This document shows, one piece after another, positions 11,584 to 50,293 of a stretch of DNA of 64,000 nt (position 1 is its first letter; each line of letters begins with the position of its first letter). A program made the position numbers and the translations under genes. This DNA is from Cristatella mucedo. Lineage: Eukaryota; Bryozoa; Phylactolaemata; Cristatellidae. The DNA lies in contig WPIO01000018.1 of NCBI GenBank assembly GCA_009760855.2, forward strand, positions 1,534,501 to 1,598,500, written 5' to 3'. The notes under the pieces are model-generated. The model worked only from the letters and a program-made list of their open reading frames with translations. It ran no database searches and had not been told where the DNA came from.

Positions 11584-12777
11584 ATGCCGGGACATTGGGG
11601 GCTGCAGATGCGCCGCACTAAAACGGCGCCATTGGAGCTCACCACGGCCGAAGGAGGAGGCGCCGCTCAGTTGCAGCAGCAGCAGCAGTCGCCGCCGCCG
11701 CCATACGGCGACGTCGGCGGTGGCTGTGACGACGCCGAAGCTGACCGCTCAGTAGGGCCAGAAGCAGCCGGCAGGGGAAGCCCCGGCGGCACGCACCGCC
11801 TCGGCTGGTCGGACGAAGGGCCCGTAATATCGTGTCCCTTCCACAAGACGCTCATCTTTAGCCTGACGGTGTTTGGACTGTTTTACCCGAAAAACTTCGG
11901 GGACATGTGGGGCAAGGTCAACACGCTGATGATGTTCTACTCTCCTGCGGTTGTTCTGATCGTCGCCTTCAACACGGCGCGCATGCTCGCGACAGCTTTC
12001 GACGCCGGCGACGACTACGCCGCCTTGTTCAACAAGATCAACTACGTCGCCTGGTTTCTGCTCTGCTCATTCAACATCGGCATGCACTACTACATGAGCT
12101 TCGCCAAGGGCGGCGTCCGGCGGTTCTACGAGAAAAAGAAAAAGTCGATCGGCCGCATGGCGCAGCTCGACATGATAGTGCCGTGCATGATAAAAGTGGA
12201 AGTCGTCTGCCTCGTCGTCGGCTGGTCTTTGGTAATAGCCAACACGGCTCTCGCTTGCCTGCGACTGTTCGACGCCGAGAGGTTCGACAGCGTACGGGCC
12301 CTGTGCCGCCTCGGACTGGGCAACAGCAGCACGACTCACGTCGAAGAGGAGGCGCTGCGCTACTTGATGGCCGCCGCGTTCGCCCTGGCGTCCGGCGCCT
12401 GGATATGGCCAGTCGTGTACATCGTGAACACGGCGCTGCACCTGAGCGCTTCGTACAAGTGCCTGAACAAGCGCATGCGTCGCCTGGTCTCGCACAGTCA
12501 AGCCGACTTCCTGAGAGACATCGGCAAATACAGACGCTTGCATCGCGGCATCACCGAGTGCGTGGAAGTGGCGGACTCCTTCTTTCAGTACACGATCGGC
12601 GTGCACGTCATCCTATACCTGCTCCTATCCATGATGGAGATCTACAACCTGGTTTTGTCCGACGCACTGCGCCAGAGCGACAACGCCGATCTGCTGGCCT
12701 CCTACATCATCTGGCTGGCGGCATCGCTGGTCATGCTCGCCGCCGAGTGCTACGCTTCTTCACTGGTCGCCCACAAC
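11584..12777 (+). CDS. Receptor gene 1, exon 1 (residues 1-398)
   Basis: The open frame starts at the first ATG of the frame and would run on to a stop at 12816. The coding part is taken to end at 12777, where AAC is followed by the strong donor GTGAGT. The paralogue's exon 1 ends at exactly the aligned position: 22 residues from the shared WL pair to the donor in both genes. The intron after it is phase 0. This exon encodes the N-terminal tail and segments 1-6, with blocks GLFYPKNF, FNTARML, VGWSLVIANTA, WIWPVVYIV and LLLSMMEIYNL that also occur in gene 2. A second in-frame ATG at codon 9 could serve as the start. Confidence 0.9.
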
Positions 12778-15700
12778 GTGAGTCCTTGCTTCGAGCTCGC
12801 AGTGCGCGTTCGCTGAGCTCGGCGGCCGTACCGCCAGCCCCCCCCCGGCCCGAGGAGGAAAGCAGCCGGCCGGCTCGCTCCGGAAGCAATTGGCCTAGAG
12901 AGGCTCCGGGCCCGCTGCGCTTCAAAGGGGCATGCGGATGACATTTGGGCGGCCAGCGCCTACCCACCCCCAGCCCTCCTCTTCCGTGATCGGCGGCGAG
13001 CGAAAAACGGGCTCGCCAGCCACAGTTTCCTATAGCAGTCGCCCTTTGGGTCTGAGCCCGAGGCGCTCGCTGGGCGCTCGCCGCTTGCGCCACCCGGGTC
13101 GATCGTTTGCTTGCGTCTTCGCGCCGTCTGCCCCGCAGCAGGATATCCTCGCCGGTCATGCTCTTTGGGAGCGCCTGAGCGAGCCGGCATTGCGCGTCGA
13201 CAGCTTAACCGACTAAGCGCGGCGCGTCGAGTTGAGCGTGGGCTCGCGCGCCTGATCGATACAGTCCGCTTGACGATCGAACCGCAGCGCTCGATTCTCG
13301 TTCGGACGACCGAGATGGAGCGACGAAACGGGCCCGTGCCTGCGAGCGATGGTCGCTCGAGAACGGCTCGGGCGAGAGCTTGAGCTCGTCACCAGCCCGG
13401 ACGCTCCGATATGCGAAACGACGATTTCCGGTGATATCTGAAGTTCGGCGAGTCTACCGAAAGGGAAGCGGGAGCAGCTTAAGCGAAACGACAGCGTCGC
13501 GAAGCAGCGCCGCTTGGGTGGGTAGAGGTGCGAGCGAGCAGCTGCGGAGCAAAGGCATTTGTTCAGCTAAAACGGCCGTCGGCGCTGCTAATCCATTTCC
13601 AATACGGGTCTCACCGCCCGGCTGCGCCGCCGCCGCCGAGCGCGGCAAACTGGCTGGACCGTTAAAACTGGCGCTGCCACTCGCGCCAGCGTTGCGGCGC
13701 AAGCTCACAGTCGAAAGCATCGGGTCTTAGTGGTAGGAGCCGAGTGGCGCTAGAGCTGGCGCTGCTCCCCTACGCCTGCGGCAGGCGCTCACGGGCGGCA
13801 GGCGCTCACGGGCGGCAGGCGCTGCTAACCATTCAAGCTCCGCCTCAGCCTCGCGTGCGACTGACCTGCAAGAGCACTGTCAACTTAAAGATATATAGAT
13901 ATATTTTAGAAAAGCGCTGGCACTCATAAGCGCATGCCGTGCCAAAGGTTGAAACGACTTAGCGCCCTGCAACTAACTAGACTACGAACCCCAACGAAAC
14001 GACCACAGTATTACGCCGCTAGCCGGCGTCCCGGTCAGCATACATCGCGCGGTCACAGGAGCCTGGAATGGTCGCCGTAATTACGAGCGCCGCAGAGCAC
14101 GCTTCGACTGTTTAGCATTGGCCGTTATAGTAAGCGCTGCCGTGGCGGTTTCCATATATTCCGAATGATCAACGGATACAGAGCGAAGTTCTTACGCCCA
14201 CCCGCAAGGCCGGCCACGGCTTGGCTCTACCATAAGTAGCTGAACTGCTGCATCCGTGTCTGGCTTCTCGTGACCCCATTTCCAGTACGGTCAATAAATA
14301 ACCTGTTCCATTCCTCTGCTTAAATATCGTCAGCGACAGAAGCTTTGCTCTAAAGGTCGTAGGCTGTGTAACTCACTTCCAAAGTTTTCACGCAACGAGC
14401 ACCACTCTCCTGCTGCCCACTATGCCACATCCTTTCTAGCAGTCCTGAGCTGCTACTTACATGTTACTCACTACCTCAACTGCTCTCCTCACTCTGCTAT
14501 GCTTTCAACTTTCTCTTTTTTGCGGGAGGTGAAGTTGGTTGGTTGCTTAGGCTGTGAGTGAGCCATACAAAACTCTCCTGCATAGCGCACACGTGGTCTT
14601 TTTGGAGTTACAGACACAACTACATTAATGTTAATATGATGTCGAGAAGTCATCCAGCGTGCCGAGAGCGTTGAGCGAGACGCTGCTGCCCTCCTGCCAC
14701 CCAACAGTTGGCCGGAGCACCTTTGGTTATAAGTCAATAAATATTAGCTCATTTTTACACTGGCAGAAGAGCCTTAACGGTTATCACCACCTCTTGCAGT
14801 TGGCAATAAAGGATCGCCCGCTGCAGTATTCTTCTCGGCGGCCTTGGCAAATAAGTGCAAGCTCCCAGGACTAGTCAAATTGTGATGCTCTTTCAGAGAT
14901 TCATTCTTTTCTTTCAGTCTCGAGCGACTTGCGAAATACTGTACAAGTTTTCAGAAAAGTGCGACAACTTAGAACACAATCAGATATTTCAGGTACGTCT
15001 GGCTTATATAGTGACATTGGTAATTGTCTGTAATTGCTTTCAGTGCAACTCTCATTTTGCGACATGCATGTAACTGAAGAAATGAAATCTCAACTTGCTA
15101 TGTCTTCAGACGGCGTTTGATAATTAAAATTTTTTTCATCATGCCATATCTGGTTTCTAGTGCTCATGGCTCGGGAAGCACTGCTCTCAAGCTCTGTCAC
15201 CACTCAACCGATCTAGCTGGCGATGTTTCAAAATTAACTGGCTCCCGATTAAGCGTCCGACATTGCGGCAAAGCTTCAACGTGGTCACCCATTGAACGGC
15301 GAGACTGCGCTAATGCCTAGACATTAATATGCTAGAGATTCCTATGTGCCTTTTCATTTCAAAGTCTCGGCTAGTTCTGTTCCTAATCTGCAGTTCCTAC
15401 TCAGTTCCCGCAAAGTGACCTCGCTCTGGCACAGCTGAGGAGGCACGGGAACGGAAGAGAAGGACCAGTAAGCAGTTTGTTTGCAGTTTCGGCCCTGAAG
15501 GTCAGCAATGGATCCAGTGGCCATCTTGCATTCTGTCTTAGTCGAACGCAATAATAAAGAGTGTGGGCTAGAGTTACGTACCTCGCTAAGCCTCGAGACG
15601 TACGACAATGAATATTATTAGCCCATGCTGATGATCGATTGTCAGTCATTTCAGAGGCTTATCGCGTTCTCTAGTCAAGCTTTCGCCGGCTGAGACTGAG

Positions 15701-17381
15701 CTATAACATTTTACTCCCTTGTCAGCAATCTTAATGCGAAATGATCCATTCAATTTAGTTCAGGGCATTGTGAGTTGATCGATATTAAGTCAGCCACGCT
15801 CATGCCATGGTGCCTCGTGCATTCCCGTCCACTGAACTCACAGGGAGCAATAGTAAGTATTGCAATTGACGATGCGGCAGATAACCTTGCCATCTTCCTG
15901 TCCATTAGACTTACGATAATGATGTGACCAACGGAGAGCGCTTCAAAAGCTGGTAAGTAAGTATCTGTAATCTTTACCCGTCTAATTAATGCATGCCGAA
16001 GTATCTGAGCATCAGGTGAACCTCGTTTGCAGTGCTTTGCCGTAGAGAGCAATGCAGTGCAGTAATCTTTTCATGGCCGTTTCGAGATAAAAATAGTCGT
16101 TAAAACTGGAATCGGTGAATAACCAGAATTAGGCTGTGTGTTTGGCATATAGTACAGAGTTAACACAAAGTGGTGAGGGCTGATAAATGTGTTAGGGTCA
16201 GATTCCGTCTACAGCCAGGATTCCACCACAACTAAATCAACCATCTGGGTAAATCACACGAGCTATTTGGAAAAGATAAATGAATTACATTTTAATGCTG
16301 TTGAAACCATTATAAAAACTTGTACAGCTCGAGCTGCTCGAAAAAATTTTCCTGTATTAGCAAGCTAGCCGGTTTGCTGGGGCCTTGTCAATCTGACCAT
16401 GCTCCAAACGATACTTTGCCTCTAAAATCGGCTTCGCCAAACTTCCCTAATGGTTGAAGTATCAGGTCTAAGCTTTTAGGCGAAGCCAGCAAGCATGATC
16501 TTAGCCTGTATGGTAATGATAACTTGGGCTGTATCTTGTGCTAAGCAATCTGAGTGGCATGCAATAAGGTTACACGTTTCTCAGCATTAGTTGGCAGATA
16601 GAGTGCAGTGTGCAGCTCTAAAGTGTGTTTACAGCTCATAGCGAATTATATCCTCAGCATTAGTAGCCATTTCTCAGCAGGTTAACCACGACACGAGTTT
16701 ATTTACTTGATGCAGATGTAATGATGCAGAGAGGTCAGCTTTAGATTGTACACTCTTATTAAAGTCGATCAATATTTTCCAATTGCTTGCACTGCCATCC
16801 ATAATCGGGTGGGTACAAAAATCCAGCACAAAAGCCAATCCAATTTTGGAACTATGGAGCTGTCTTATTGGAAAGCCACTCACGACGGAAAGCTAACCTT
16901 AGTTTCTCATGCATGTAAAGCGATGGCAAATCAAATGCCAGTGCAGTTAGGCCCAATGTCGGAAAGGATTGCACCCTCAGAAAGACGACAGTCTGAGATA
17001 TTTTTCTATCTAACAGGTTCAACTATTCCTGAGCCAGCTGGAGAGCCCTTCGGGATTCAACGTGATGGGTTTATTTGCATTGAACAAGGAGAGCGTGCTG
17101 ACTGTAAGTGGATTCGGCGTCTGTTGTCATCGAATTCCCCACGTCCTGTATATACAGTACCGGCTGCTTTTAAAACGGGTGTGAGGCAGAAATCAGGTCA
17201 TTTGCTTTAACTAACAAGCCGTGTGAAAAAAGTGAGGTGTCTTCTTGTATACACTTAAACCATTTTACCTAAGCTTCGTTGATGATCGGCATCTTGAGAG
17301 TCTCATTATTTTTTTCAGATTATGGGAACATGGATTACCTACTTCTTACTTGTGCTACAATTCGCACCACCAAAGTACTAG
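11584..17381 (+). CDS. Receptor gene 1: gustatory-receptor-like seven-transmembrane protein, four exons, complete
   Basis: The joined exons (11584-12777, 14918-14992, 17017-17103, 17319-17381) give a 472-residue multi-pass membrane protein. The N-terminus (residues 1-100) is long, disordered and rich in Q, P and G. Hydrophobic segments are near 115-135, 152-172, 203-225, 260-282, 333-353 and 370-390, and the seventh is in the last exon (about 453-466). The lysine-rich loop after segment 2 (EKKKKS, 183-188) and a glycosylation sequon (NSS, 247-249) after segment 3 fit an N-terminus-inside topology. The conserved block YRRLHRGITECVEVADSF (316-333) before segment 5 and the terminal TYFLLVLQF are the family hallmarks. 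In that family such proteins are ligand-gated cation channels for tastants or internal cues; which ligand is unknown. All introns are phase 0. Gene 2 at 46429 is its paralogue. Confidence 0.88.
11669..11705 (+). repeat. Q/P codon runs in receptor gene 1
   Basis: A run of CAG codons (five glutamines in a row) followed by CCG codons (four prolines) lies in the N-terminal tail, at residues 31-40. It is a small trinucleotide tract of the kind that varies in length between individuals. Gene 2 lacks it. Confidence 0.8.
13777..13823 (+). repeat. 17-bp minisatellite, about 2.8 units
   Basis: Unit GGCGGCAGGCGCTCACG is repeated nearly perfectly. The first unit starts with T instead of G and the third is partial (13 bases). 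It lies in intron 1 of receptor gene 1, inside the GC-rich block. Confidence 0.85.
14237..14640 (+). mobile_element. LINE family 2, decayed 3' part inside intron 1
   Basis: Matches the reverse complement of the 25.6-26.1 kb copy: AGCTGAACTGCTGCATC, CTGTTCCATTCCTC, CAGCGACAGAAGCTTTGCTCT, GTGTAACTCACTTCC and CGCAACGA, then the 3' end CACAGCC/AAAACTCTCCTGC. It lies in the same orientation as the receptor gene. No intact frame. Confidence 0.75.
14735..14850 (-). mobile_element. SINE A fragment, copy 2
   Basis: Carries AGAAGAGCCTTAACGGTTATCACCACC and AAAGGATCGCCCGC in the order of the other SINE A copies. It breaks off near the box B equivalent, about 70 bases upstream of receptor exon 2. Confidence 0.75.
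14918..14992 (+). CDS. Receptor gene 1, exon 2 (residues 399-423)
   Basis: A 75-base exon between a strong acceptor (TTCTTTTCTTTCAG) and a strong donor (GTACGT), phase 0 on both sides. It encodes 25 residues including CEILYKFSEKCDNLEHNQ. The matching exon of gene 2 (50009-50083) is also 25 residues, with C at a nearby position followed by E-I-L and K. In the receptor family this is the cytoplasmic loop between segments 6 and 7. Without exon 1 it would be too short to notice. Confidence 0.88.
17017..17103 (+). CDS. Receptor gene 1, exon 3 (residues 424-452)
   Basis: An 87-base exon with acceptor TTTTTCTATCTAACAG and donor GTAAGT, phase 0. The 29 residues start VQLFLSQLESPSGFN and end NKESVLT. 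Gene 2 exon 3 (50207-50293) has the same 29-residue length. Shared residues include L-F at 3-4, S-x-G-F, F at position 20, K-E and the final L-T. In gustatory receptors this stretch precedes segment 7. A longer open frame in another phase overlaps it (16746-17210) and is a shadow. Confidence 0.88.
17319..17381 (+). CDS. Receptor gene 1, exon 4 with the terminal TYFLLVLQF motif
   Basis: After the acceptor TATTTTTTTCAG the frame continues in phase 0 with IMGTWITYFLLVLQFAPPKY and a TAG stop at 17379-17381. TYFLLVLQF is a perfect instance of the TYhhhhhQF signature at the end of segment 7 in arthropod gustatory receptors and their relatives. The intron before it is only 215 bases. Position, phase and motif together make this the genuine last exon. 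Confidence 0.93.
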   Translation: MMGTWITYFLLVLQFAPPKY

Positions 17382-17564
17382 TTCCTCATCAGAGAGTGCA
17401 AAAAGTAACCGGTTACTATAAGCAATGAGCTACGACTGAGCATAATCCACTGCTCAGTCCAAATGTCATGCTGCTGGTAATCGATGATCGATGTCAATTC
17501 TATATTTATGATTAATCGTGTCAAAGAAAATGCAGCACTAAGAATAATTATACAACATTTTGAC

Positions 17565-17570
17565 AATAAA
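17565..17570 (+). promoter_or_regulatory. Poly(A) signal AATAAA of receptor gene 1
   Basis: Canonical AATAAA about 185 bases after the stop codon, giving a short 3' UTR. Confidence 0.6.
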
Positions 17571-18239
17571 GCGAAGCTTATCCAAATTTTTGCCTCTAAA
17601 ATATTTTCTATTCACGATTGCACAGTTCACAGGGTGAACATCATGCCGGTGGAGTAAAGTAAAGTTTGTTAATTAAGCACTACAGTTTTAAAATCGACCA
17701 AATTGGCTTTACGGCCATGAGCGTGCTTGCATGTACATGCTTTGTGGATACTATTTCTAACCATATGTTTATGCCTTCTTTATATGACACTTAAAGTACC
17801 TAGATAGAGACTACGTTCTTTTAGGGCTATATAAATGGTGTTATTAATATTGCAGCCATGAAGAGCGAATTTCTGCCGGACTGGAATCCTCGACCTAGGT
17901 CGAGAACTAGCAGCACCTTACCGTTGGTGGTCCATCCGTTAACACCATAATTCAGGAACATAACTAGAGCAGCCACCGTCTATCAGTGACTGCCACTGAT
18001 TAGCTGCTCAAACACCTTGAGAAGACATAGGCCACACGAAGACCGTTGTCACCTAAAGCTACCCGAGTATTGGGCTGTTCGCACTGCCTTATTTGGCTCT
18101 GTTTTATTTTTCACAGCCGATTAAACTACTATGGGATTGGAAAACCTTTCCATTTCATTTTTAATAAATACTCGACATTTATCTGGCACCCTAAAAATTA
18201 ATATATCTCTAGCCTATTTATGTATTCACGATATTTTCT
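17571..18239. other. No gene seen; spacer after receptor gene 1
   Basis: No open frame with support. It contains a 16-base perfect palindrome at 17889-17904 (listed separately). Confidence 0.45.
17889..17904. repeat. Perfect 16-base palindrome
   Basis: CTCGACCTAGGTCGAG is its own reverse complement. It has no neighbour of known function; it could be chance or a protein-binding site. Confidence 0.7.
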
Positions 18240-18535
18240 GACTTTTCCCGATTTTAAAAGGAACTAAAACGGGTAAATGCATAACATCATTTAGTGAGTC
18301 CCTGTGATTCTCCATTATGGGCTTATTCGTGCTGACAGTGTGCATGTTGCTAATATCCATACTTGCATGCAGACCCTGTGAATGTCAACCATAACCTTGT
18401 TATTCTTGTTGTGTAGCCACCATGCTAAAACTAACCATTCGATTGTGCTTTATTTGCAGCAAATTTAAAATGCCTAGAAACAGATTAATTCACAGAGGGC
18501 ACTATAACAAGGGTATTTTTATTATTATTACGGTA
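18240..18535 (+). mobile_element. LINE family 1, 3'-end fragment
   Basis: Contains the 3' UTR blocks TTTAAAAGGAACTAAAA, GTGCTGACAGTGTGCATG, CATGCAGACCCTGTG, CAACCATAACC and the terminal GCAAATTTAAAATGCCTAGAAACAGATT seen in other LINE 1 copies. It ends in a poly-T/TTA-rich stretch. Confidence 0.82.
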
Positions 18536-18736
18536 TGCTTCGAATAACGCAAGTTTTTTTATTATAACAAGCTCAAGGTTGGCAATCATGAGCAAAGAAA
18601 TGACCATCCACACGGAAACAGTTAATGCTGTGAAGAACACGTACCTGTTTAGCTTCATTTTAAATGCTTTAAAGTCAGGAGATGTCGTGACGTCAATAGA
18701 AAATGATTTTCAGGTTTCAGGAATTATTTTCAGGCT

Positions 18737-18742
18737 TTGTGT

Positions 18743-18817
<75 letters not shown>

Positions 18818-18834
18818 TGTGTGTGTGTGTGTGT
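18737..18834. repeat. (GT)n microsatellite
   Basis: About 48 nearly uninterrupted GT units, with one A and one C substitution. Confidence 0.97.
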
Positions 18835-19720
18835 TATTATACATGAGAGGCTCGCAACTTTTGAACAGCCAAAAAACTGAGGTCTTACAGTGCTAGCGTT
18901 CACTGGCGTCTTTCCAAATTAACCTCGGGCTACACATCACCCGGATAATCACTCTAGTCTGCAAGGCAACTCATGGCTGCTGCACAGTAGAGACGGTACC
19001 TGGATTCACCGTTAAATACTTGAGCTGAAAATCAATTTTCTTATCTCGGCATTCTCTGGACACTTACTACCGACTGATTGTTACAAGTTCTACCTGCAGG
19101 CTCTATTTTAATTAGTGGCCCACCAAGAATTTGTATCTAGGGAGGGATCGGAGGTGGCCGTTTTAAAGTAGAGACAAGAACATAATTTCATAGATGGTGA
19201 CCGTCAAAGTTTGGGAGTAGAAGGATCCCCAAGTCACTGTCCATAAAGGCGAATGCCCCTACCCATCCCCTGGCTCTTCCACTTATGATAATCCAATTTG
19301 ATTGATGACGACTTCTCCTCCGCCTTCTGCCACGTTGAATCTATTTGGAATGGTCTCCTTATTTATATCTGAGCACTTTACGGTCGTTAAATAGCAGTCT
19401 ACGGATTTTTCCTGAAGTTTAGAGCATATGCTGTCAAATCCTATGTTTTCATTTGCTAGCACTATTGAGCAACTTCGGTCACTGAAGCTTCTCAACACGA
19501 ATTTCTTCTTATTGTTATTAATCTGTAACTAATCACTGAAACTCTGTCCTATTGATGGTACTGTTATGTTGCCTCGATTTCTGACGCCTAAGGTCCAAAC
19601 TTCTTTTCTGGCCTGTCTCCCACCACTAGTCTATTTCATGCGGTGGATGAAGTTGAGGGAACTTCCAAGGTGTCTTAAGCTAAAATTATGAAGCGGGGCA
19701 TCCGCATCCAAGCACTAATC
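18835..19720. other. No gene seen
   Basis: Only short chance frames, for example the antisense 71-codon frame at 19283-19498, which has no recognisable domain. Confidence 0.45.
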
Positions 19721-19875
19721 GCCGAGCTGGGTTGGTCCAGCGGTTAAGGTTCACGCCCCGACTAAGGTCTGGCTGAGGTCGTGGGCTCGAGCCCTGAGGC
19801 ATATGTGAAGCACCTGAATATAGATTTAGTTCTCTCGGGGCGCTATACAAACGAATTATATAATGCAATATATGA
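19721..19875 (+). mobile_element. SINE B (tRNA-derived head, LINE 1-like tail), copy 1
   Basis: The head has a box A-like TTGGTCCAGCGGTTAAGG and a box B-like GTGGGCTCGAGCCC with tRNA-like spacing. The tail GAAGCACCTGAATATAGATTT, then AGTTCTCTCGGGGCGCTATAC and AATGCAAT, follows the 3' terminal sequence of LINE family 1. That is the expected design of a SINE mobilised by a partner LINE. Confidence 0.82.
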
Positions 19876-21649
19876 TCACCAACTAAAGCAGAATTCAGAG
19901 CAAAATATAATGGTTCTTCTGAAGGCACTACTATTTATGCATTCCGTGCAGATTTTAGACAATAAAATGCTATCAGGCTTCAGAAATGGCAATGACTTGA
20001 AAATTGCCAAATTGATCAAATCGTGTCTTGCCAAAAAGCTCTGTATCACCTTGTTTAACAAAGAATGATGTTTAGATTATCAAAAATCGATAGCCTTAAG
20101 TAAAAAAAATCAACGTTTTCAGGCAGACTACTGGCTGTTGAATTGGCTTCAAGTGCACAGGTAGCACTCGTTGTTGAAATTAAGAATTAGGTTGCCATAT
20201 TAATCGAGTCCAGTTATCAAACTGGCGTAGAAATCTGAAGGATACACCTTTAATATTGAATATATACGGTCAAGTGAATGTGAATGAATCTTTGAACTCA
20301 AGCATAAAGCGAAAATCTAAAATTCTACCCTTAAGGGAAACATTTATGGATTACTGATTCCAAGTGAAATTTATAAGCATAAATTGCAGCACTTCATTCA
20401 GCCGTCGAAATGCTTGCACTTACCACAGGAGGAAGGTTGGCTGGTAGATCGTCTTTCGTAAATGAACACCAAACAAACCTAATCTGCTATTAAGGGCAAT
20501 AAAAAGGAAACGTAATCGAAAATCAATACCGACAAATAATAAATAAATATAGAATAACTAAAAATATTAAATTGATTGTTAATAATAAATGTTTAAAAAG
20601 TTCAAGGAAAGCAATGTACAAGCTTGCTCTTTGAAGAGCATCTGGAGTGCAGAGCTACCAGTCATTTGAACATTCAGGTACGTTGCTAAGTTTTGTTTAT
20701 TTGAAGCAATTGCTAAAGGACGTAAACTGGCTTTTACCAGGTGTGACATGTATAGCTAAATGCTTAGTCATGCATGATATATTACATGACCGCACACAAT
20801 CTTTACTCGGCTTTATTGCAATCAATGCCGTAATATACTTGAGCTAAAGGAAACCAACTGTGGGCGTACAGCCTAGAAGGCGAGCCACCAGAGCAGCCTT
20901 TCAGCCCTCTATGGAAGCGATGGCTCTCCTCCAGGAGAGTAACTTGAATCTATGGTCCGAAAAAGCGCCTCCGACGAACCTGTCAGCCACTCTACTAGTC
21001 GTCGTACTAGCACGCACCCAAAAGACGTGTAGCTGGTAGGTCGAGGCTTGCGGCTTTCGTGTGAATCTAAAAGAAGCTCACGGAAAGAACCGGTATGCTG
21101 TTTTTGTTGGGTGAGCTCAGCTCACCCCTCTGAGGTGGATCCGTTGGGAGTCTCCTATAAAGTAGCCTTCTACGTGCATCTTTTTGATTACAATCTCAAT
21201 CTCTTCAGATTAAAAAAAGAGCTACGTCGGTAGGACTTAGCAAAAGAAAGAACCTGACAGATTCAACGAATTATCGGCCCCCGGTGGGAAGAGCGGCATA
21301 AAAATTTACACGAATGTTGCTTTACTCGTTTGCCCTGCCGCGGGCTACACGGTATTCCAGCCGTTCTAAAGGTGCAGATGCTGCTACAGTAGACGCTCTC
21401 AGGTTTCGCCAGCCTGTGCTGAGCTGAGTAAGTCGTCCAGCGACATCTCTGCTCTCTGGTCACGTGTAACTGCAGGAGTAATGGCAGCAGCTCGGGGCTA
21501 GATTTGCGTCTGTATGCATTAATTTATTATTTAATGCTGTAACCTCTATTTGGCAGGTGCTCCCTAGTGGTAATTTTGAAGCCGAGGCATTAAAGCCTCG
21601 CATTGAATTATGGAACAATTCCAATCTCCGTTTGTTTACTAGGGGATTC
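19876..21649. other. No gene seen
   Basis: AT-rich spacer with a few short open frames and no recognised domain. A 19-base hairpin lies at 21109-21127 (listed separately). Confidence 0.45.
21109..21127. repeat. Perfect inverted repeat (8-base arms)
   Basis: GGGTGAGC, a 3-base loop, then GCTCACCC. It can form a stable hairpin. Nothing around it indicates a role. Confidence 0.7.
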
Positions 21650-21808
21650 AAAATCTCTATTGTATAGTGACAGAAGAGCCTTTAAGGCTATCACCAGCTA
21701 CTTTAGTGGCAGTATAGGATCGCCCACAGCTCAGGATTCAAACCCATGACCTCGGGAAGGAAGTTGTGAAAAGCCACAGCCTTACCTAGTGGGCCATCAT
21801 GGCTCACC
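21650..21808 (-). mobile_element. SINE A, copy 3
   Basis: Minus-strand tRNA head with box A block ATGGCCCACTAGGTAAGGC and box B-like GGTTTGAATCC, then the GATCCTATACTGCC body, GGTGATAGCC and AAAGGCTCTTCTGTC end. Full length or nearly so. Confidence 0.85.
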
Positions 21809-22734
21809 AGCCATAGCTCAGTCACTGGTGGGCCAGGCTGGTAACTCTGACGTTTCGCGACAGTTGCCCGCTGGATGCAAGATTTTTTTCAGCCACTCAT
21901 CTCCTTTCGAGATATTGGCTGATCGGCATTAAAAGCATTTGTGAGCATGAGGTAATAAATTGGTGGAGCCCGCCCGATTAGTAGGCTGCGGTATCGTATA
22001 TATTGTCAAGGTATTTTCGTGATTGTCCATAGTTGCTCATGTGGATGGATGTAAGCATTTTTAGATATAAATTTTTAGTTATTAAGTAATGTGTATTTGA
22101 AATTACGTCTCTAGTAGTTGTGACTGATTTTGAAACTGGTAAATATCTTGTTGAGTGGTTCACCAGGTAAAACGTGTAGCCGTACCTGTCCACGAATCGC
22201 ATAACTGTACTCGTCAGCTGGCCATTTACCTGAACAAGTTATCCATCTATTCACCATAATGCACTCATAGTTATTCTTAAGTATTTTTTAGTTATGGTTG
22301 TTATTGACTATTAATCTGTGCTTAATTGATCCACTACGGAATGTCTTGCCACGGCATTATTACTTCAATTGTAGCTCCTAGCATGCTAAATGGTGCTAGC
22401 TTTGATATATTCTTGAACTTTCGCTTCCCATACAAAAGGCATGCACTGCAGAGTTCGCATAATCACAGCTGCTACATTTGATGCCTCGCTTTGTAAATAT
22501 ATCTACTCAATCTAAGGCTATGCATTTTCCACTTAATTATGGAAATGAAGCATATTCTCAAGTCGGACACTAAGCTATTGGTCTCAGCCACCAATTCGTT
22601 TATCTTACCTTGCAAGGTTAGCAGCCAGGCTGATGGTTGGCAGACTGTTTCTGACGATCATCAGGTGACGCTCACTAAGCAGTACCCCTAACTCAGCTAA
22701 TAATTAAAAACGGCTTCAATCAGATCAACACAAT
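21809..22734. other. No gene seen
   Basis: AT-rich DNA without a supported gene or repeat. Confidence 0.45.
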
Positions 22735-22880
22735 GACCCTGTACATGTCGTATCTCACCATGTTATACCTGATGAAATTCCGAATGTTATCATTAATCAT
22801 TTGGTCATGCTGTCTTTAAAAAATTTGTTAAGTACCTAGAACAGATTCAGTTCTCTGCACGGTCTTTCCTCATGCATTAT
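22735..22880 (+). mobile_element. LINE family 1, short decayed 3'-end fragment
   Basis: Blocks ATGACCCTGTACATGTC, CACCATGTTA, AATTTGTTAAGTACCTAG and CAGATTCAGTTCTCTGC follow the LINE 1 3' UTR order. Confidence 0.65.
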
Positions 22881-40159: not shown

Positions 40160-40960
40160 ATTGTACGACAAATTTCAGTCGCTATTCAAGTAACACCACT
40201 CTACTGAACTTGCTCTCCTGCCTGTAGCTATCGAAACCGAATGCAGCAGTGATTCCAATAAGGTCTCTGACCTGGCCCTACTAAATCTATGAGCTGGGTT
40301 CGACACTATTGATCCCACTATACATCTTGAACTGTTGAGACGAACGATCGTTCTAGCAGACGAGGCACTGGCGCGCTTCAACTCGTACTTACCCAATCAC
40401 GTTCAAACCCTGTCGTATGTTGTTCAAGTCTCACGCACCAGACTTGTAACCTGCAGAGTCCTGCAATGGTTAATTAGCGATCGCTTGCCGATCTCGAATT
40501 AATGTGAATCTCTGCGAAAGTGATTTGAGTTTAATTGTTTGGCTATCACATCTATGCTGGTGATACTCAGCTGTATGTGTTGATTAAACCGTCAGAATAT
40601 GCAATTGGGATGGAGACTTGCTTGCTTGAATGCTTGCCTTGACAAAATTTGAGTCTGGAAGTCAGCCATATTCCTTTACCTAAACGATAATAAAACCAAA
40701 TTGCCACTCAAATGACACTCAAAGCTTGACGCTAGACTAGAAGACTTTGCCTTTCGTATATATGACGCTATTTTTGACCGTCACCAAGAGCTTGGAATTT
40801 AGGTGTCGTCTTCGACAACTCAATGCTTATTACTCCCATGCTACTTACTTCTTTGAATATCCTCCTGATTCAGCTAAACTTCTCACTCTGTCTTTGACAC
40901 AAGAGATGGCCTCTAACCAATGATACATGTAGCGAAAGCTGTAGAGTTGTAGTTTGCTAA
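40160..40960 (+). mobile_element. LINE family 2-like RT core, heavily decayed
   Basis: The + strand shows remnants AGFDTIDPTIHLELLRR (the AAFDTIDH motif) near 40290 and YAGDTQLYV near 40553 (the YADDTQLY catalytic block with one aspartate lost), followed by LNDNKT-like residues. Several stops lie between. Confidence 0.7.
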
Positions 40961-42281
40961 AGATGATTCTCCAGCGTATCACACACTTAGTATTTGCGGC
41001 TTTGCGAAGTTACGGATAAAACTATACTACATTTAAAGAGTAATACCATATTCACTACTATAAAGACGAGGATAGATATGCATAAAATCGTTTCTTTGAT
41101 GAGCCACATCAAAACCTTTGTATTAGACCGAATCGCAAGATCGCTTGTCGCTTTCTTGGTCTCTGGTTTGAGACTAGCTGCATTTATTCCTAACCGGCCT
41201 GCTGCCGGCAGGGTGACAGCAGTTATTTCACTACTCCAGCTGTAAAAATAAGGCTATAAACTAAGCAGAACCTTACCTTATTCCCATTTCTCTTACTGCT
41301 AGGTGCGAAGCGCTATCACCCGCTAGTGACTGTATGAAACTCCCTAAGAATTATATGTTCATGTCGGCTGCGTTAAACTGCTTAGAGAAATATACAGATT
41401 GCAGGATGTATTCAAAAAATAAGCTCTGGCTGAAATTTGTTCAATCTTCTGAAGGTGCAGGCAGTATCTTACTAAATGAATTATAGGGAACATGCCGGTG
41501 ATCTTCATATCAGCTTTGGTAGGAGAATCACGTCGGTAGGTCAAATGTAGTAAGAGCTCAGAACTGAATTGCATTTATCTCAACAGGAACAAAAGAAAAT
41601 GTTCAAAACTCAAGTGGGCATTATACACTTACTGCCGTTATTTTGCTTTATACTGCTCCAGTAATGTCTGAGGACGCTTCCACCACTCAACGTTTGAAGT
41701 TATCTAAACCATTTAAGACGACACTGTATCACCGTCGGCCGATAACACCTGAAGCCAACTGAATAGACTTACAAGCGGCATCCAAATTCTCCGACTTGCA
41801 TTATAACATACTCGTAGGTCATTAGAAAAGAAATTCAGGCAGTAGAGGACCCCTGTTCTAAGAAACTCTCTAGAGAGGGCTGTCGCCATCTCTTTGGTCG
41901 GACCAAATATGAGTTCTGGAACGTAAAATTAGAACACAAGTGTGAGATTCCAAGAAGCAAAGGTTTTAATGACCAATGAGAGAACACGAAACCAGAATAC
42001 TGATTCTAGATTTGTGTCGAGTAGAAACAGAAATAACCGAGTGCATTTGAAAAGCTCGAACGTCTGCTTAATGATGCCATTGCCCCAATTTCCATGCGAC
42101 CGAGCTTTTAAATTACTTTTCTAAATCAGTAAATGATTTAGAATTTTAACCATTGCCAGCCATAGTTTAACCAACTATTGAAGTGCTACCGTAGCCTCAT
42201 CGGCGAGTTGCTAGCTCCTCGCTCGAGTATGCTAACCTGGCCGAAATATACCGGGCACGTCATTATTCTGAGCTCAGTGCC

Positions 42282-42282
<1 letters not shown>
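40961..42282. other. No gene seen
   Basis: AT-rich spacer without supported features. Confidence 0.45.
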
Positions 42283-42367
<85 letters not shown>

Positions 42368-42371
42368 CTCT

Positions 42372-42402
<31 letters not shown>

Positions 42403-42411
42403 CCTCTCTCG
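42283..42411. repeat. (CT)n microsatellite
   Basis: About 40 perfect CT units, followed by a less regular CT/CCT/TTT tract to about 42411. Confidence 0.97.
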
Positions 42412-43500
42412 CACACACTCACTCTGGAGTCATCCTCTTGGGCTAACCATAGCCAGGTCGTTCTCCGACAGAGGTAGGAATTTATGGATAAAAGATAAAG
42501 CTTTGACGCGGACCGACAGACCTTCAGAATGACGTAGGAGGACCCGGAGTAGCCGGTGAATTCCGGCTCACCGCTGCTGCGTCGTTTTTCCACACCTGTT
42601 GCCGTTCCGCTCTCTAAGCAGGTGCAGCCCTCGACAACTAGCCGCGTCCGGAGCTGAGCAATCTATTATTCTCCGACGAAAAGACTTTCCGTCGGCCTGA
42701 GCTCACCCCACTATTTGTAAAAGTCAGCCTCGGCTCAGCCAAGTAGATATTTCGGGTTCATTGGACAGATAAGGTGCTGGTGCGACGTGCTGGTCGTTCT
42801 TTATTTGAGGTTTGCTGCACCGACACGCTCAGCACTGGCAGAGAAGCCGAGGCTTAAATCCGTAGCTACAAACTAATTTCGAATGCTTCTCAACCTCTTG
42901 TCAGTGCGATGCTCTCACCGGAGGACTTGCACCGATGCGAAAAATGCGTGCGGCAACCTTGCCCCACTCTCCGTAGGGCCGGCTTTTGGACGCTAACGGG
43001 GGGGGGGGCTGGGGCGTTCTCTCACGGTCTCTCTCGAATAGCGAAGCTACGCTCGCAGCCGTACGAAGTCCATTTGTCGATTACGTAAATCCATTACTCG
43101 GCAATGGTTCGTCAGGATTTTGCGGTGACCGTCGGCCACAGGCGGAGCTCTTCTCTGCATACCGTCAAAGGAAAATGAGCATTGTCCCTGCGGAGAATTA
43201 AAAATAAATAAAGAAATCTGAGACAACTCGCAGCGCTACTGTCAGCCGGAGCTGAACCATAGCGGCTTTCAGCCTGCTTGCAGCTGGCAGCAAATAGCAT
43301 TGGAGCTGCAGGATCCGGAACTGCTGCTCCGATTATCACCTTGCTAAAGCTCTCGATCGCCAGATGAAATCGTTTTTCGGTAGCACCTAGCGATGACGTC
43401 CAGGACCTCGCTGCTCGAAACATCGCGTTGAGCTGAAACCAACATAGGTACAACGCGGATGCAGAGATTTATCCTGGAGACATTCGTCAGACTTTGAGTC
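42412..43500. promoter_or_regulatory. GC-rich block upstream of receptor gene 2 (possible promoter)
   Basis: Clearly richer in GC and CG dinucleotides than its flanks, with an 11-base G run at 42998-43008. It lies about 3 kb upstream of the receptor gene 2 start codon. By analogy with gene 1 it may hold a promoter with a 5' UTR exon spliced to 46.4 kb, but no donor or transcription start was fixed, and it may belong to an unrelated transcript. Confidence 0.3.
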
Positions 43501-44625
43501 CCAATAAAAGACATACCGAACAATGATAACTTGGCTAGTTCAATAGTTGTCGGCCACCAGCACTTGCAAGCTTGACCGTATTAGTGTGACCCATCAATAA
43601 GGTGACCATGGCTTGGTTTTTTAGCTTCAAAGCTATGTTTAATGCAATATTCACCGCGAATATTAAGCAGAATGCCGAATATTTTGTCATTATTAAAGGT
43701 AATTTAGCAGGTTCAATAAATTTTGACTGACAATGGTCTTCGGGAGACAATATATCTTGCTGGCAAATTCGATGTGCTGCCGTAGCTGCTGTGTCTACAA
43801 TAATATTAATGAAAGCAAAGAGAGTTATTTTCACAGCAAGATATTTATTTAGCCGTCGCGAAAAAAATCTTTCCAGGCACTTAACATGTCCTTTAAAGAT
43901 TGCGAGTCCATTGGTTAGTCATTTGTTGTGGAATGACAGAATGCCCTACGATCCAAATGAGAATATGCACATCATAGAGGCAGTTAGGAACAAGGCCCGT
44001 GTTTACATTTTTCTAATACCATCAAACAGTAGATCAGGTAATGTCAACGGTTAGAAAATTCAGGATTTAACCACTTTGGATGTAGGCGGAAGAGTTTTTA
44101 AGAAGATTAAAGTTCATTGTAAGAACAGGCTAACGACCAGAGTCGAACAAATGCATCGTTCAAAATGCAGTGTGATTAGGAGCCATCGGATAGACAGGAC
44201 AGGCAGGTCAGAGAAAGAGAACGAAGGGAACTAAGAGTCGATAGAACCTCAAAGAAGTCAAAACGCACCTTGCCGGGAGAGTCGGTGCCGATTGATGAGC
44301 AATGGTGTGAGAGTTTTTCAGGCTACTATCATGGCACCATGCTTGTGGCATGCTGAAGTGCTTCTTTTGAAGGAGTATCACTGTCGGGACCAGGAGGCCT
44401 CGTGATACAGGTGGGAATCAAAAGATTGATGTGGTGTGTGAAGTTGCTCTGTCTCGGTGGGGCTTGGCTAGGGTGACATGTTGACTGTCAGGTGCACATA
44501 TCAATGACCACTTGGGCTTTGAGTGATCTGTGGAAGAGAATTCAGCTTCAGTTCCACACACTCGTTCTCGATCTGTGGAGTTACCGACAGCAGGCACACT
44601 CAGGTCAGAACATCCTTTGGACTCT
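43501..44625. other. No gene seen
   Basis: Short frames at 43535-43834 (-) and 43791-44054 (+) lack recognisable domains. Confidence 0.4.
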
Positions 44626-44950
44626 TGATGGTAATAACAATAATGCATTCATGTAGCCCACTCAGCACATTTAATCTCTGTCTAGGCACTTTGCACACGG
44701 TGAAAAGCATACAAAATCAAATGGTTAGCTGAAATATCAACAGTAGCAACATGCAGGCATGGTGTCCGAAAAATCACAACTGGCACATTGCAAAGACCCA
44801 GCAAATGGCTATAGAAGCAGGTTCATGCTTAGATTATTTTAATTTTCATCAATTAAAGGGCGGTTGCCACGTGAGTTCTGAGTGATATTCAAGCTTTGAG
44901 AGCATGACAACTAAAAGCACGGTCTCTAAAGTACTACAGGTTGGATCAAG
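44626..44950 (-). mobile_element. LINE family 1, 3'-end fragment
   Basis: AATAATGCATTCATG, CTCAGCACATTTAATCTCTG and AGGCACTTTGCAC mark the LINE 1 3' end. Then AGCAACATGCAGGCATG and AAGCACGGTCTCTAAAG follow in the same order as other copies. Confidence 0.72.
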
Positions 44951-46428
44951 GCTTAAGCAAGTCCTCCAACGGAGTCTTGCTTCCTACCTTCCTGCTACCT
45001 GCTTCATTCCTGCTCAAATCTTACTTCGGTCTTCCTTTTCGTGGACGGCTAAATCTTAATCTTTCTCTGTGTGTTGATTCTTACTCCCTCTGCCGACTGA
45101 GCATTAACAGTACACTCACTTTTGTTAGGGAGATAGCAATTAGCTCTCCACGATGGACCTTTCTACAGCCAAGCTTCGCTAACACAGCTGTTAGAATGAA
45201 ACCTGTCCACTATGGCCTTCACCGTATGCCACCTCTTAGTAGGGTATTTATATGCCGAGCTTAAACTGTCAGTTAAACTTGAAATAGCCCGAAACAAACA
45301 CTTCGGTGATTTCATTGCTCAAGTCGTCAGCCATTCCTTTCCAAGCAATGGCAAGTGTGTGGCCTGAATCGCACAAGGAATTCGTCACCTGCAAAGTCAT
45401 GCCCGAGTCTCGGCAGAAGAAGTAGAACCACGTTTTGCTGCAGAAGCTTCGTTGACTCTTCCTTAAGTATTGAACTACCCTTAAATATTGGTTAGACATA
45501 CGCCGAAGACTCGAGAAAAATAAAAACCGGTAGAAAGCAAGACCCCAGTCTAAATCCGGCTTTAGCTTCTGCCGAGGAGCTGCATGCAAATGTCACTTGA
45601 TTATTGATCGCAGCTTAGTTGTGGCAGCGATTGAACGCTGCTAACTTCCTGTCTGCTCTGAATGGCTATTGAGTGGGCCTTTGCATCCTTTAGTCGTCGG
45701 TCTGATAACCAGCTGTCATCTTTCTTTCAGCAGCTGAGGCAGGGAAGAACTGTCTTGACCGTTATTGTGTTATTGCCCAGGTCACAGCCAGTGCGAACAA
45801 CCTCATTGTCTTTATCTGCAGTCAGACTTCTGAACAGCAATCTGATGCTGGGCTGCTAGAGCAGGGACGTCCACACACTAATGTGCCTTCATTGTCAAGG
45901 TGCAGGCACTTCACCCGGTATGTAACCATAGTTTTCCACCCACAGGAAGGGAATGGGAGTAAGCAGCAGAAGCTGAGGCTGCAAACAAATAAGCTTGCAT
46001 CGTCAGTGGTCCATCTGTTCTCATCTGAGACTGTGTGTCTACGTGGGAGGTCCAGGCCAACTCCAATAGGGTAGCAGATGGCTCCGCCCTACAGCAGGCG
46101 ATTGGCCTTTGCTGGCAAAGATTAGAAGCTTGATTGCTGCTGAGACAGAGCCACCAGTGCCAACTAAGCCTCTTGCCTGTTGTAGATTGACTATCTGTGG
46201 GAGCCACGACATCTCAACCTAGCCAGCCAGCAGCCAACTAGATCATTGGTTCGACAGCAAGCTGGCAAGCAGCAGTGGTGGCTTGCCTTTGGCACTGCCC
46301 CTATGCTAGGAGACTGCAAACCGGCTGAATATACCTTGTGAGTAGACAGCATCTAAGGCAATAGCTTTGCTTGAGGTAGGCAAGCTGTCTGCTCAGTTTC
46401 ACTGTCTGTCGTCCAGCTGGCTGTTGAA
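44951..46428. other. Region upstream of receptor gene 2; no exon supported
   Basis: Open frames at 44941-45264, 45662-45859 and 45883-46074 have no family signature. The 5' UTR of receptor gene 2 should lie here or further upstream. Confidence 0.4.
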
Positions 46429-47679
46429 ATGAACCTTGACCTGCCAAGAGATTCGGAGGGGCCTCTTCTGGTGAGTGGTGCCTCACCTCAAACTCCTCCC
46501 AATGATGGCATCAGCAGAGATTTGACAAACGTGGACATGGCTGGAGCTGTAGAAAGAATTGAACGGCCTTCAACACAATCAGGTGCAGAGGCAGGACAAA
46601 AACGGGTCAAGAAGGCGCCAACATGCAGTGACGTGCGGATGGCCTTAGTGAGATGCCACTATCACCGAATCGTTTTGTGCAGCATGATGGCATGTGGCCT
46701 ATTTTACCCACGCCACTTCGACATGTGCCGGCGACGCTGGCAGATGCCACTCATGGTTTACTCATCGCTGGTTCTTTTCCTCATGGCTTTCAACACGTGT
46801 CGTGTGCTGCTCACGTCGTTTGACAGCAGTGATAGTCTGAGCGACATGCTCTTCCATAAAGTGAACATAGTATGCTGGCTGACGGTGTGCACCATCAACT
46901 ACATCGTCCACTATGTAATGAGTGCCCACAAAGCTGGCCTGCGGCGCTACTACATTAAGATGGTAGCCGTAAGGAAGGAATTCTTAGACCGAGGCATCTG
47001 TAGCTCCCACGAGAGTATCGCCCGAGTCGAGATCTCCTGCCTTGTAGTCGGCTGGTTCTTTGTCCTGGTCAACACTGCATACGTGCTGTATGGCATCATA
47101 CAAGAGCAGAGCGTCCTCTTTCCCACCGAGGCTCACTTCCGAATGTGGAGTCTGCAGCTTCCCCTCCAGGAGCAGCTGCATCAGTCATCCACAGCCAACA
47201 GCACTCATGTCTTGCCAGCTGCATCTGCAAGTGAGGCTATGGGGACAGCTGCTGTGCTTGGTGGCCGAATCCTCTTTGGCTTGCCTGTATTCTTCTACAG
47301 TGCTGCATGGGTTTGGCCAGTCGTCTACTTCATCGACGTGTCCATGCATGCCAATCAGTTGTTCGGCGACCTCAACAATCACCTTCGTTCGGAAGCTAAA
47401 GGTGGTAGACTTCTTGCCAGCATTGCCATCTATAGACAACTGCACCGAAAAGCTTGCAAAGTCGTATGCATTGCCAATGGCTACTTCAAGTACCTGCTGG
47501 GTAGCAACATGCTCTTTTACCTCCTGCTGTCAATGGTGCAGATGTACAGCCTGCTCTGGTCGCCCAGTCTACACGCCCCAGACAACTTGGACCTGCTGGT
47601 GGCGTTCGTGGTCTGGCTGTGCTGTTCAATCTTCATCTTGACCGTCGAATGTGTGGCAGGTTCTGTGACATCATCAAAG
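46429..47679 (+). CDS. Receptor gene 2, exon 1 (residues 1-417)
   Basis: The open frame begins at ATG 46429 and stops at 47760 if unspliced. The coding part is taken to end at 47679, before the donor GTAGGT in AAAGGTAGGT, phase 0, exactly aligned with the gene 1 donor. Segments 1-6 are in this single large exon. Codon 37 is another ATG, but the first is kept because the conserved region starts only at about residue 76 and gene 1 also has a long tail. GC content is lower than in gene 1 exon 1. Confidence 0.88.
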
Positions 47680-50293
47680 GTAGGTTCTCGCAAACTCTTG
47701 TCTCCTGTTGCCTCAAAACGGGCAAACATTCATATTCCCAGTCACTATCAAAAGAGCTGAGGAACCAGCTAAAGTTGTCAAGAAATGGATAATTGTGCTT
47801 CTATTGTATGGACAGCTGTGATTTCTTAGAATACCAATCATATGCAAAAAATAAACTGGCTTTAGGTTTTGTCAGTTTCTGGCTTGGTCTGGAGTCACTA
47901 CTATGAACTCGCATGTAGACAAGCTAGATTTGGACACCGAAGGCTTTGGCATGAAACTGTGAAATTTGCAAATGAGGCTTCCTCCACACTTAATTTAGGG
48001 CTTAAATAGCAGCAAGCCAGCATCTGGTTTAGGATTGCGCGATCGACAGCGGCTAGTAATGTTAACAGAGGCAACAGTTTCTAAAAAATTGGTGCTGGCA
48101 AAACAGCAAACTTTCTTGTACTCGGGAAAGTGCGAGAGATAGGTAGAGAGATGAAAGAAATGGAGGCCTCGTATATGTGGCTCATCACACTGTTACTAAA
48201 TCTCAAGCCATATAATATGGCAGCACTGCCAAGTTGGCTTGGGGGAAAAGATAATATGCTGAGAAAAGGAAATAGGCTTATTTGACGGAAACATGTTTGG
48301 CCGAGTCGACAGACTCAGCCCAAAGACTGAGTTACTTACCAAGTGACTTGGAAAAATATGACTAGGTTGAAAATTACAACTCATTCAATTCAAGCCTGTT
48401 AGTATATAGGAGATTATTGAGCCTAATATTATTACTAGCTCACTATCTGTGCGTGTTAAAACTTCCCCTGCCATTACTAGGTTTAAAAAGAAGCTTAAAA
48501 CACACCTAATATTGCAGCATTAAGTGGGTCTTAGCGATTCGTTCTCCCGTCTTAATGCCTGCTTTTACTGTGCCTGCTGCCTGCGGATGTTACCACAAAT
48601 CTTTGGTCATGCTTTCTATACAGCATTTGTATATTGCCTTGGATGAGATAGAATTCTCCGAGTATGCAATGCAATTTTAATATTATGATTATTATTATTT
48701 GTACAAGTGGTCTGCAAAGTATAGCTACACGAGGCCAAAATAAAGGGACTGGATGCCATAAATCAGCTAGAGAAGAAATTACCAACGAACTATGATTAAT
48801 ATGCTTTACTAGTTCAGCTGACACTTGCTGAAAGGCTATTCAACCAATCAGAGACTCAGCCATGTATCTCCTATGCTGAACAAGGTGCAATAGTTTCTGG
48901 CTGATCAACGGATGAGGAGTACAGTTTTTACCTGACCCATAAGACTTGTCATGGCTTGGCTTCTTTGTAACTAGTTGAACTTGTGCATTACTTGCAGTCG
49001 TATCCTGATACCGTATCCCATGTAGGCAATAAACTAGTTAGTGTGTACTTTGGCTTTAAGACAATTGGTGACATAAACTTTTGCTCTATAGGTATTAAAC
49101 TTTAGAACCCACTTAAACCATTTTTATGCAACGACATCCACCCTCCTAATGTTTTCTATGGCAAGCCCTTTCAACTCGTCCTGAGCAGTTACTTCCTAGC
49201 TACTCACTTCCTCGACTGCCAAGTTGACTCAGCTAGGCTTCGTACTTTTTCTTTGTTTTGTGAGACCTAATTGTTAGCTAATTGATGTGCTCCAAAAGCT
49301 GCTAGCGCTTTGATTTTGACAAGGAAAACTGTCCTGCGTAATGCCCACGTTGTCATATCTTTGTAGAGTTACAGACTTTCATTGATTACGTTAACAGTTT
49401 TCTTAAGCTCGTAAATGAAGCCTTAAATCATAGGCACAAGCTCAGCTATTTTTGATTAATACTGACCAAGACAAGTACCAGCTGTGATACTGGTATTGCA
49501 TACCTAGATTAACTATATACCGAGATACACGGTGTACTCTGTATTTACACTAGCATTCTTTTTCATCCATTACTATACTGGGTAGTCAGCCAATGCAGGT
49601 CTCGGTAAATTTAGACCACTACAGTTTAAATTCACGATTTATTTCTGGACAACTTACTGCAATCGTTGCTGAAATGAGAACAGGATATTGATCAAAGTGA
49701 CGTTAATCTTACGTTATGTCCTTAGCTGTCACGTGGACACCACATAGTTGAGACCGTTCAACTGCATGTAGCTTAGCACCTGGCTATACAAAGATGCCTG
49801 CAAGTGGCAATCACATCGATTAGTTGGTTTACCAGTGTTGACTTTGTTATATCATTCTAAAGAAATTAATTGATACGTTGCCTTAATATATCAGTTGAGT
49901 ATGACTAATCGAGCTCATTCAGGTGGTTTCTTGTCTGGTTAAGCACAATTAATTGCCACTAATTCAGCAATAATACTGCTTTCACATACCTGCACGATAT
50001 TTTTTCAGGCAAGGCAGTGTATGGAAATATTGTTGAAGCTTAACGAAGAAAGTGAAGAAATAGGAAATAAGCAGTTACTAGAGGTGAGTTTTTCTCCGAG
50101 TCCTGAAGATCGTATTCACTGAGATTGCTCGCGATACACTCCAGTCTCAGGCTCGTTACACTCTGCAATTACATGCTGAATACTTAAAATGGAAGTTTTA
50201 ATGCAGATTGAACTATTCATTGCGAAGTTGAACACCAGCATTGGATTTACCAGCTTAGACATGTTCGTGGTCAGCAAGGAGGTCACATTGACG
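46429..50293 (+). CDS. Receptor gene 2: gustatory-receptor-like protein, exons 1-3 (C-terminal exon not identified)
   Basis: Exons 46429-47679, 50009-50083 and 50207-50293 encode 471 residues without the terminal segment. The N-terminal tail is about 75 residues. Hydrophobic segments are near 107-127, 146-166, 201-222, 281-302, 354-373 and 388-408. Blocks shared with gene 1 are GLFYPRHF, AFNTCRVLLTSFD, LVVGWF, WVWPVVYFID, YRQLHR, FYLLLSMVQMYSLL and DNLDLLVAF. The loop between segments 3 and 4 is about 25 residues longer than in gene 1 and also has a sequon (NST, 257-259). All introns are phase 0, with exon 2 and 3 lengths identical to gene 1. The predicted role is a membrane receptor/channel for chemical or internal signals; the ligand is unknown. 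Either the last exon is diverged or distant, or the gene is damaged. Confidence 0.8.
48440..48712 (+). mobile_element. LINE family 1, decayed 3'-end fragment
   Basis: AAAACTTCCCCTGCC, GGTTTAAAAAGAAGCTTAAA, CACACCTAATATTGCAGCAT, GTGGGTCTTAGCGATTCGTT, GAATTCTCCGAG and a TTATTATTATT tail follow LINE 1 3' order with many substitutions. Confidence 0.72.
49080..49400 (+). mobile_element. LINE family 2, decayed 3' fragment
   Basis: AGAACCCACTTAAACC, TTTATGCAACGACATCCACCC, CAGTTACTTCCTAGCTACTC, CTCGACTGCC and AAACTGTCCTGCGTAATGCCC match the sense strand of LINE 2 in order. Confidence 0.7.
50009..50083 (+). CDS. Receptor gene 2, exon 2 (25 residues)
   Basis: Between acceptor GATATTTTTTCAG and donor GTGAGT, phase 0 on both sides. 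It encodes ARQCMEILLKLNEESE..., the counterpart of gene 1 exon 2 (C, E-I-L, K and a shared Q four residues from the end). Not visible as a stand-alone open frame. Confidence 0.88.
50207..50293 (+). CDS. Receptor gene 2, exon 3 (29 residues)
   Basis: Acceptor TTTTAATGCAG and donor GTACGG, phase 0. It encodes IELFIAKLNTSIGFTSLDMF followed by nine residues ending in LT. This is the pre-segment-7 stretch of gustatory receptors and is the same length as gene 1 exon 3. The intron before it is only 123 bases. Confidence 0.87.

Follow-up and report, generated by a model that had tools for sequence, protein, structure and literature searches.

The window analysed here is a 64,000-nucleotide stretch of the genome of the bryozoan Cristatella mucedo, corresponding to positions 1534501-1598500 of contig WPIO01000018.1 (hereafter C99); its numbering is also used for sites beyond its end. 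It carries two genes, G1 and G2, which the original prediction had described as a diverged tandem pair of gustatory-receptor-like (GRL) genes with identical exon architecture. G1 comprises four predicted exons on the + strand. Exon 1 (11584..12777, 398 codons), contained within a large open reading frame (ORF) at 11584-12816, ends in phase 0 before a GTGAGT donor and is estimated to encode membrane spans 1-6. Exon 2 (14918..14992, 75 bases) is open, is bordered by AG and GTACGT, and lines up with its counterparts in five other copies of the gene described below. Exon 3 (17017..17103, 87 bases; AG and GTAAGT borders) was recovered with exon 3 of G2 as the sole seed, and exon 4 (17319..17381, 63 bases including the stop codon) encodes IMGTWITYFLLVLQFAPPKY, the TYhhhhhQF end of the protein. 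The introns (2140, 2024 and 215 bases) are all of the GT..AG type and in phase 0, and the joined exons (1194, 75, 87 and 63 bases) encode a protein of 472 residues. An alternative in-frame acceptor for exon 4 is located at 17301, 18 bases upstream of 17319; the latter was chosen because it fits the alignment with the other copies. Exon lengths, phases and product size, all read from the sequence, agree with those originally proposed.

G2 follows the same plan, also on the + strand. Its first exon (46429..47679, 417 codons, 1251 bases), within a large ORF at 46429-47760, ends in phase 0 before GTAGGT, at the same alignment column as the first exon of G1. Exon 2 (50009..50083, 75 bases; AG and GTGAGT borders) and exon 3 (50207..50293, 87 bases; AG and GTACGG borders) are in phase 0. 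The shared end point of the first exons and the lengths and phases of these small exons were likewise found as predicted. Exon 4 (C99:1599400-1599459, corresponding to 64900-64959 in window numbering; 60 bases with the stop codon) is situated 900 bases past the end of the window, behind an intron of 14.6 kb, and encodes VFGAWLTYFLLIVQFNPPR, which includes TYFLLIVQF. The spliced G2 protein consists of 490 residues and shares 34% identity with that of G1. Position 50293, previously given as the end of the pair, is the 3' end of G2 exon 3 and not the end of the gene. The G+C content reaches 0.55-0.62 at window positions 10001-14000, around G1; G2 is located in a weaker peak (0.505 at 46001-48000), and the remaining 2 kb steps show values of 0.37-0.48.

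The family assignment of these genes was assessed against Pfam, using the curated cut-offs of 26.6 bits for 7tm_7 (PF08395) and 21 bits for Trehalose_recp (PF06151). When the first-exon frame was searched alone, G1 reached 23.2 bits against 7tm_7 and G2 gave no match; once spliced, the proteins scored 67.3 and 55.0 bits, respectively. Decoy joins of G1 exon 1 with chance exons yielded 24.2 bits in one case and no match in the other, indicating that the gain stems from the proposed exons and not from the additional length. Including the four further complete copies described below, all six spliced proteins exceeded the 7tm_7 cut-off (47.6-67.3 bits). One of them, G7, also passed the Trehalose_recp cut-off (33.2 bits), which the other five did not, and 7tm_7 was its better match (47.6 bits). 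No other Pfam family rose above its cut-off with any of the six proteins, and NCBIfam returned no match for them. The insect odorant-receptor profile 7tm_6 matched neither the six proteins nor anything in the whole genome, and no control genome gave a match with it either.

Additional hallmarks of the GRL family (PMC9998090, PMC7746228) were observed in the array. Introns at the 3' end and a motif in the seventh transmembrane segment are reported to mark animal GRLs (PMC7746228). Three 3' phase-0 introns are present in all six complete gene models, these models having been chosen by mutual likeness, and the proteins measure 406-490 residues, within the tested family range of ~350-500. The TYhhhhhQF motif is exact in three of the six (G1, G2 and G4), while SF replaces QF in G5 and G6, and QY replaces it in G7. 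Averaged over the alignment, hydropathy delineates seven spans, and in four of the six proteins taken singly seven are also found (thresholds of 1.0 for the average and 1.25 for single proteins; a hydropathy script was used, not a dedicated topology program). With the N-terminus placed inside, the loops, in G1 numbering, measure 113, 36, 56 and 61 residues inside and 19, 37, 12 and 5 outside, and by this hydropathy estimate they contain 32 lysine and arginine residues inside versus 9 outside. Thus, the gustatory-receptor-like identity advanced in the original prediction is borne out by the profile search suggested with it, by the topology estimate (seven spans, N-terminus inside), and by the motif and the 3' phase-0 introns. 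Judged from their sequences, G1 and G2 are almost certainly members of the GRL family within the insect chemoreceptor superfamily (Pfam 7tm_7).

The small exons stand out clearly from chance candidates. In a first scan, up to 25 kb downstream of each of seven first exons (G1-G7) was searched. With G2 exon 3 as the only seed, an exon 3 was the top-scoring candidate in six of the seven stretches (scores of 59, 63, 50, 49 and 79, plus G2 itself; runner-up at most 6), and none was found downstream of the G3 first exon. Exon 2, sought with the exons of G1 and G2, scored 66 for G4 and 35 for G7 (runner-up -3 and 4), and was weak for G5 (15 versus 6) and G6 (8 versus 5). A motif search recovered exon 4 in G1, G2 and G4 and missed it in G5, G6 and G7, where it later ranked top with the G1, G2 and G4 exons as seeds (59, 59 and 70; runner-up 15-17). 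A second scan, with more seeds, covered both strands of all 264 kb. On the + strand, six of the 238 open AG-75-GT stretches reached scores of 91-136, the next being 17 (reverse strand best, 20). Of the 219 AG-87-GT stretches, six reached 121-142, followed by a relic at 53 and then by 11 (reverse best, 14), and among 5425 last-exon candidates, six scored 59-80 and the next 22 (reverse best, 24). These scores are partly self matches, because five of the six exons 2, five of the six exons 3 and three of the six exons 4 served as seeds.

The search of the genome (572 Mb, 688 contigs) for further copies yields counts that are lower bounds. At least seven copies, G1 to G7, all on the + strand, are grouped within ~133 kb of C99, their first exons spanning C99:1546084 to 1679329, and six of them (G1, G2, G4, G5, G6 and G7) share the four-exon plan. 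The genes are therefore tandem, as had been proposed, and form an array of at least seven instead of a pair; the 38.7 kb stretch 11584..50293 does not hold as a unit. Seven further copies were detected on two other contigs, six on C44 and one on C4, bringing to at least 14 the number of copies whose exon 1 is intact or almost so. In each of these seven a GT follows the codon that matches the end of exon 1, as judged by eye. The 3' exons were checked in two of them, the C44 copies L029 and L033; L033 possesses a 75-base exon 2 and an 87-base exon 3, and its exon 4 was not found in the remaining 1.5 kb. When single first exons from C99 and C44 were compared with 7tm_7, those of G5 and G6 passed the cut-off and five of the seven stayed below it: G1, G2 and the C44 copies L029, L031 and L032, the last three with no match, 23.3 and 26.3 bits among them.

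In a tree built from all 14 first exons (C99, C44 and C4), the C44 copies group together (support 80/89) and G1 groups with G3 and G4 (99/97); a single clade of C99 copies, recovered in only 34% of bootstrap trees, was not shown. G5 and G6 arose by recent duplication, the alignable parts of their introns being 84-93% identical, with a synonymous divergence (Ks) of 0.11 in exon 1 and of 0.21 in exons 2-4, the latter derived from 9 silent changes. Their ratio of nonsynonymous to synonymous divergence (Ka/Ks) is 0.36 in exon 1 and likewise in exons 2-4, and three recent C44 pairs give 0.33-0.38. Purifying selection thus acts between recent copies. Local duplication is the best explanation for the origin of the array.

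In G3 the first exon (ORF 74337-75611) is open and followed by a GTACGT donor, and G4 has a complete set of exons 2-4 at 87067-92521. Several first exons sharing common 3' exons are known from insect gustatory receptor genes, and the first exons of G3 and G4 may, from their sequences, belong to one gene with shared 3' exons.

Other sequences related to the family were also noted. A broken copy at 163709-164691 is nearest to the C4 copy. A GC-rich ORF of 550 codons (182861-184510), with a weak match of 40.8 bits to a C44 copy, may be a family member that has diverged strongly; the exon 3 located at 192247 either belongs to that ORF or is stray. On a fourth contig, C50:348535-349214 is a family-like fragment with several stops (46.2 bits), which we regard as a relic.

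Taken as a whole, we consider it reasonably likely that the array encodes GRL proteins that form tetrameric ligand-gated cation channels for external chemosensing; the tetrameric state, the channel, its gating and the chemosensory role are what we infer. Each gene would give rise to a protein of ~400-490 residues that crosses the membrane seven times, starting from an N-terminus in the cytoplasm. Exon 1 would supply spans 1-6, exons 2 and 3 the part ahead of the pore helix, and exon 4 the pore helix itself, bearing TYhhhhhQF. By analogy with the insect fructose receptor BmGr9, whose channel mechanism has been described (PMC11100771), and with Orco, four subunits would assemble into a ligand-gated cation channel, with the Q-F terminus of the last helix acting as its gate. 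Spans 1-6, which are variable, would give each copy a binding pocket of its own, so that different copies would respond to different ligands, and the sensing of external chemicals would be their most likely task.

Several observations weigh against this proposal. Taken singly, G5 and G6 show just six hydropathy spans, and the seven picked in G1 alone include one at 81-99 that is absent from the average and miss the span at 152-170. A structure model of exon 1, with the two first exons of the window as its alignment, was too poor for a fold to be read from it (mean predicted local distance difference test, pLDDT, 43.9; predicted template modelling score, pTM, 0.27). A profile search of the PDB with the six proteins found nothing at E 0.01; relaxing the limit to E 10 brought up a Reelin fragment (0.9) and, as the best matches, two Orco sequences whose E values of 0.26-0.27 fall short of significance. 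In favour of the proposal, the last exon of the array is in register with the Orco C-terminus in these matches. Exon 1 of G4 carries one in-frame stop, and 3' exons were found neither for G3 in the 10 kb before G4 nor for the C44 copy L029 within ~5 kb. G3, for which no 3' exons of its own were found, is therefore either cut short or spliced to exons 2-4 of G4. Finally, a sea-anemone member of the family may serve body patterning and not sensing (PMC7746228).

This last point leads to the alternative that the family is correctly identified and its products are not external chemosensors, having instead a role inside the body or in development. We regard this as possible, though rather unlikely. 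It draws on reports that expression and function data beyond insects are very sparse and that other roles are attributed to members on several grounds, among them the possible apical-patterning role of the sea-anemone protein (PMC7746228). Against it, the repeated local duplication and divergence recorded in the 14 copies and their tree follow the pattern of chemoreceptor families, an argument from pattern only. A different concern is whether the genes work at all: most copies, perhaps G1 and G2 as well, could be pseudogenes of a decaying array that persist by chance. The stop in G4, G3 without 3' exons before G4, the broken copy, the stray exon 3 and the stop-bearing C50 fragment are signs of such decay. 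Nevertheless, G1, G2, G5, G6 and G7 have open exons with GT..AG borders throughout, G1 and G2 are both open although just 34% identical, the Ka/Ks near 0.36 for G5 and G6 speaks against decay, and G3 may draw on exons 2-4 of G4; we therefore consider general decay improbable.

It could also be argued that the proteins belong to an unrelated seven-span membrane family and resemble GRLs by hydrophobicity alone, and the weakness of single first exons (23.2 bits for G1, no match for G2, and none to 26.3 bits in three C44 copies) and the lack of a significant PDB match are compatible with that notion. It is nonetheless highly improbable, since all six spliced proteins lie well above 26.6 bits, the only other family above its cut-off, Trehalose_recp, is itself a gustatory-receptor family, and the 3' introns and the pore motif speak against an unrelated origin. 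A GRL array that would function in external chemosensing is thus the interpretation we retain.

The surroundings of the two genes in the window include remnants of mobile elements. A fragment of a non-LTR (long terminal repeat) retrotransposon at 6114-6557 (+) matches RVT_1 with 29.9 bits, against a cut-off of 29.6. Probable fragments of the same kind are located at 4758-5399 (+), 7129-7512 (+), 55367-56254 (-) and 969-1481 (-); these four had no Pfam match, and we presume them to be non-LTR elements from their likeness to L2/CR1 elements. Two copies of a 78-base unit, with 91% matches, occupy 56317-56473.

Elsewhere in the assembly, contig C688 (L036-L038; 21,008 bases) is mitochondrial, with cox1 identified by Pfam and the large ribosomal RNA by Rfam; the remaining protein genes were identified by eye in translation. 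It contains a 2119-base exact tandem repeat, part of which recurs as an inverted copy of 1.8 kb. There is a single cox2, atp6 adjoins cox1, nad2 and cox2 are on the other strand, and the gene order is rearranged. TGA is translated as tryptophan; AGR and ATA occur at sites that are serine and methionine in other animals. One strand carries nad1, nad6, cob, nad4L, nad4 and nad5; trnP and trnT are predicted on the opposite strand. The order nad1-nad6-cob-nad4L-nad4-nad5 is that described for the nemertean Lineus viridis (PMC2728741), and an identical block is given for molluscs (PMC4189740); from its gene order, the C688 block is taken as being of lophotrochozoan type. A search for PF14830, a haemocyanin domain of molluscs, found nothing, but as no control matched either, this negative is uninformative. 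Pieces of cox1 outside C688 (C166:4375626-4376390, C83:2826-3735, C549:2641741-2642010 and C299:634220-634540) look like insertions of mitochondrial DNA, with TGA and, in some, other stops.

GRLs have been reported in annelids, nematodes, molluscs, echinoderms, hemichordates, cnidarians and placozoans (PMC7746228), and 12 gustatory-receptor-like genes in annelid genomes are cited by PMC6223215. Because the family is known across these animals, the array adds further members to an already reported group. Compared with animal GRLs (7tm_7) in general, its copies are diverged among themselves, as the identity between G1 and G2 illustrates, and three of them carry altered motifs (SF twice, QY once). 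With BmGr9, whose structure has been solved (PMC11100771), they have the pore-helix motif TYhhhhhQF in common; no solved gustatory receptor appeared among the PDB profile matches of the array proteins. The top PDB match was insect Orco (8v00 and 6c70), to whose C-terminal pore helix the last exon is in register at the E values given above; the insect odorant-receptor profile 7tm_6, as noted, matched nothing in this genome and no control.

For annotation, the consequence is practical: since five of seven lone first exons lie below the cut-off, an annotation that misses the exons of 75, 87 and 60-81 bases would leave many such genes without their family assignment. Given that expression and function data for GRLs outside insects are described as very sparse (PMC7746228), a lophotrochozoan array that keeps the ancestral gene plan offers old and recent paralogs for testing which chemicals open the channels, and its natural SF and QY gates provide material for asking whether such pores conduct. 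More speculatively, and with considerable doubt, we suggest that tandem duplication may have built several clusters of GRL channels in a lophotrochozoan lineage, an expansion independent of the comparable one in arthropods. The copies in this lineage would be tuned to different waterborne chemicals, with changed gates (SF, QY) and perhaps with shared 3' exons, as in G3 with G4, and taste in such an animal would depend largely on channels instead of solely on G-protein-coupled receptors.

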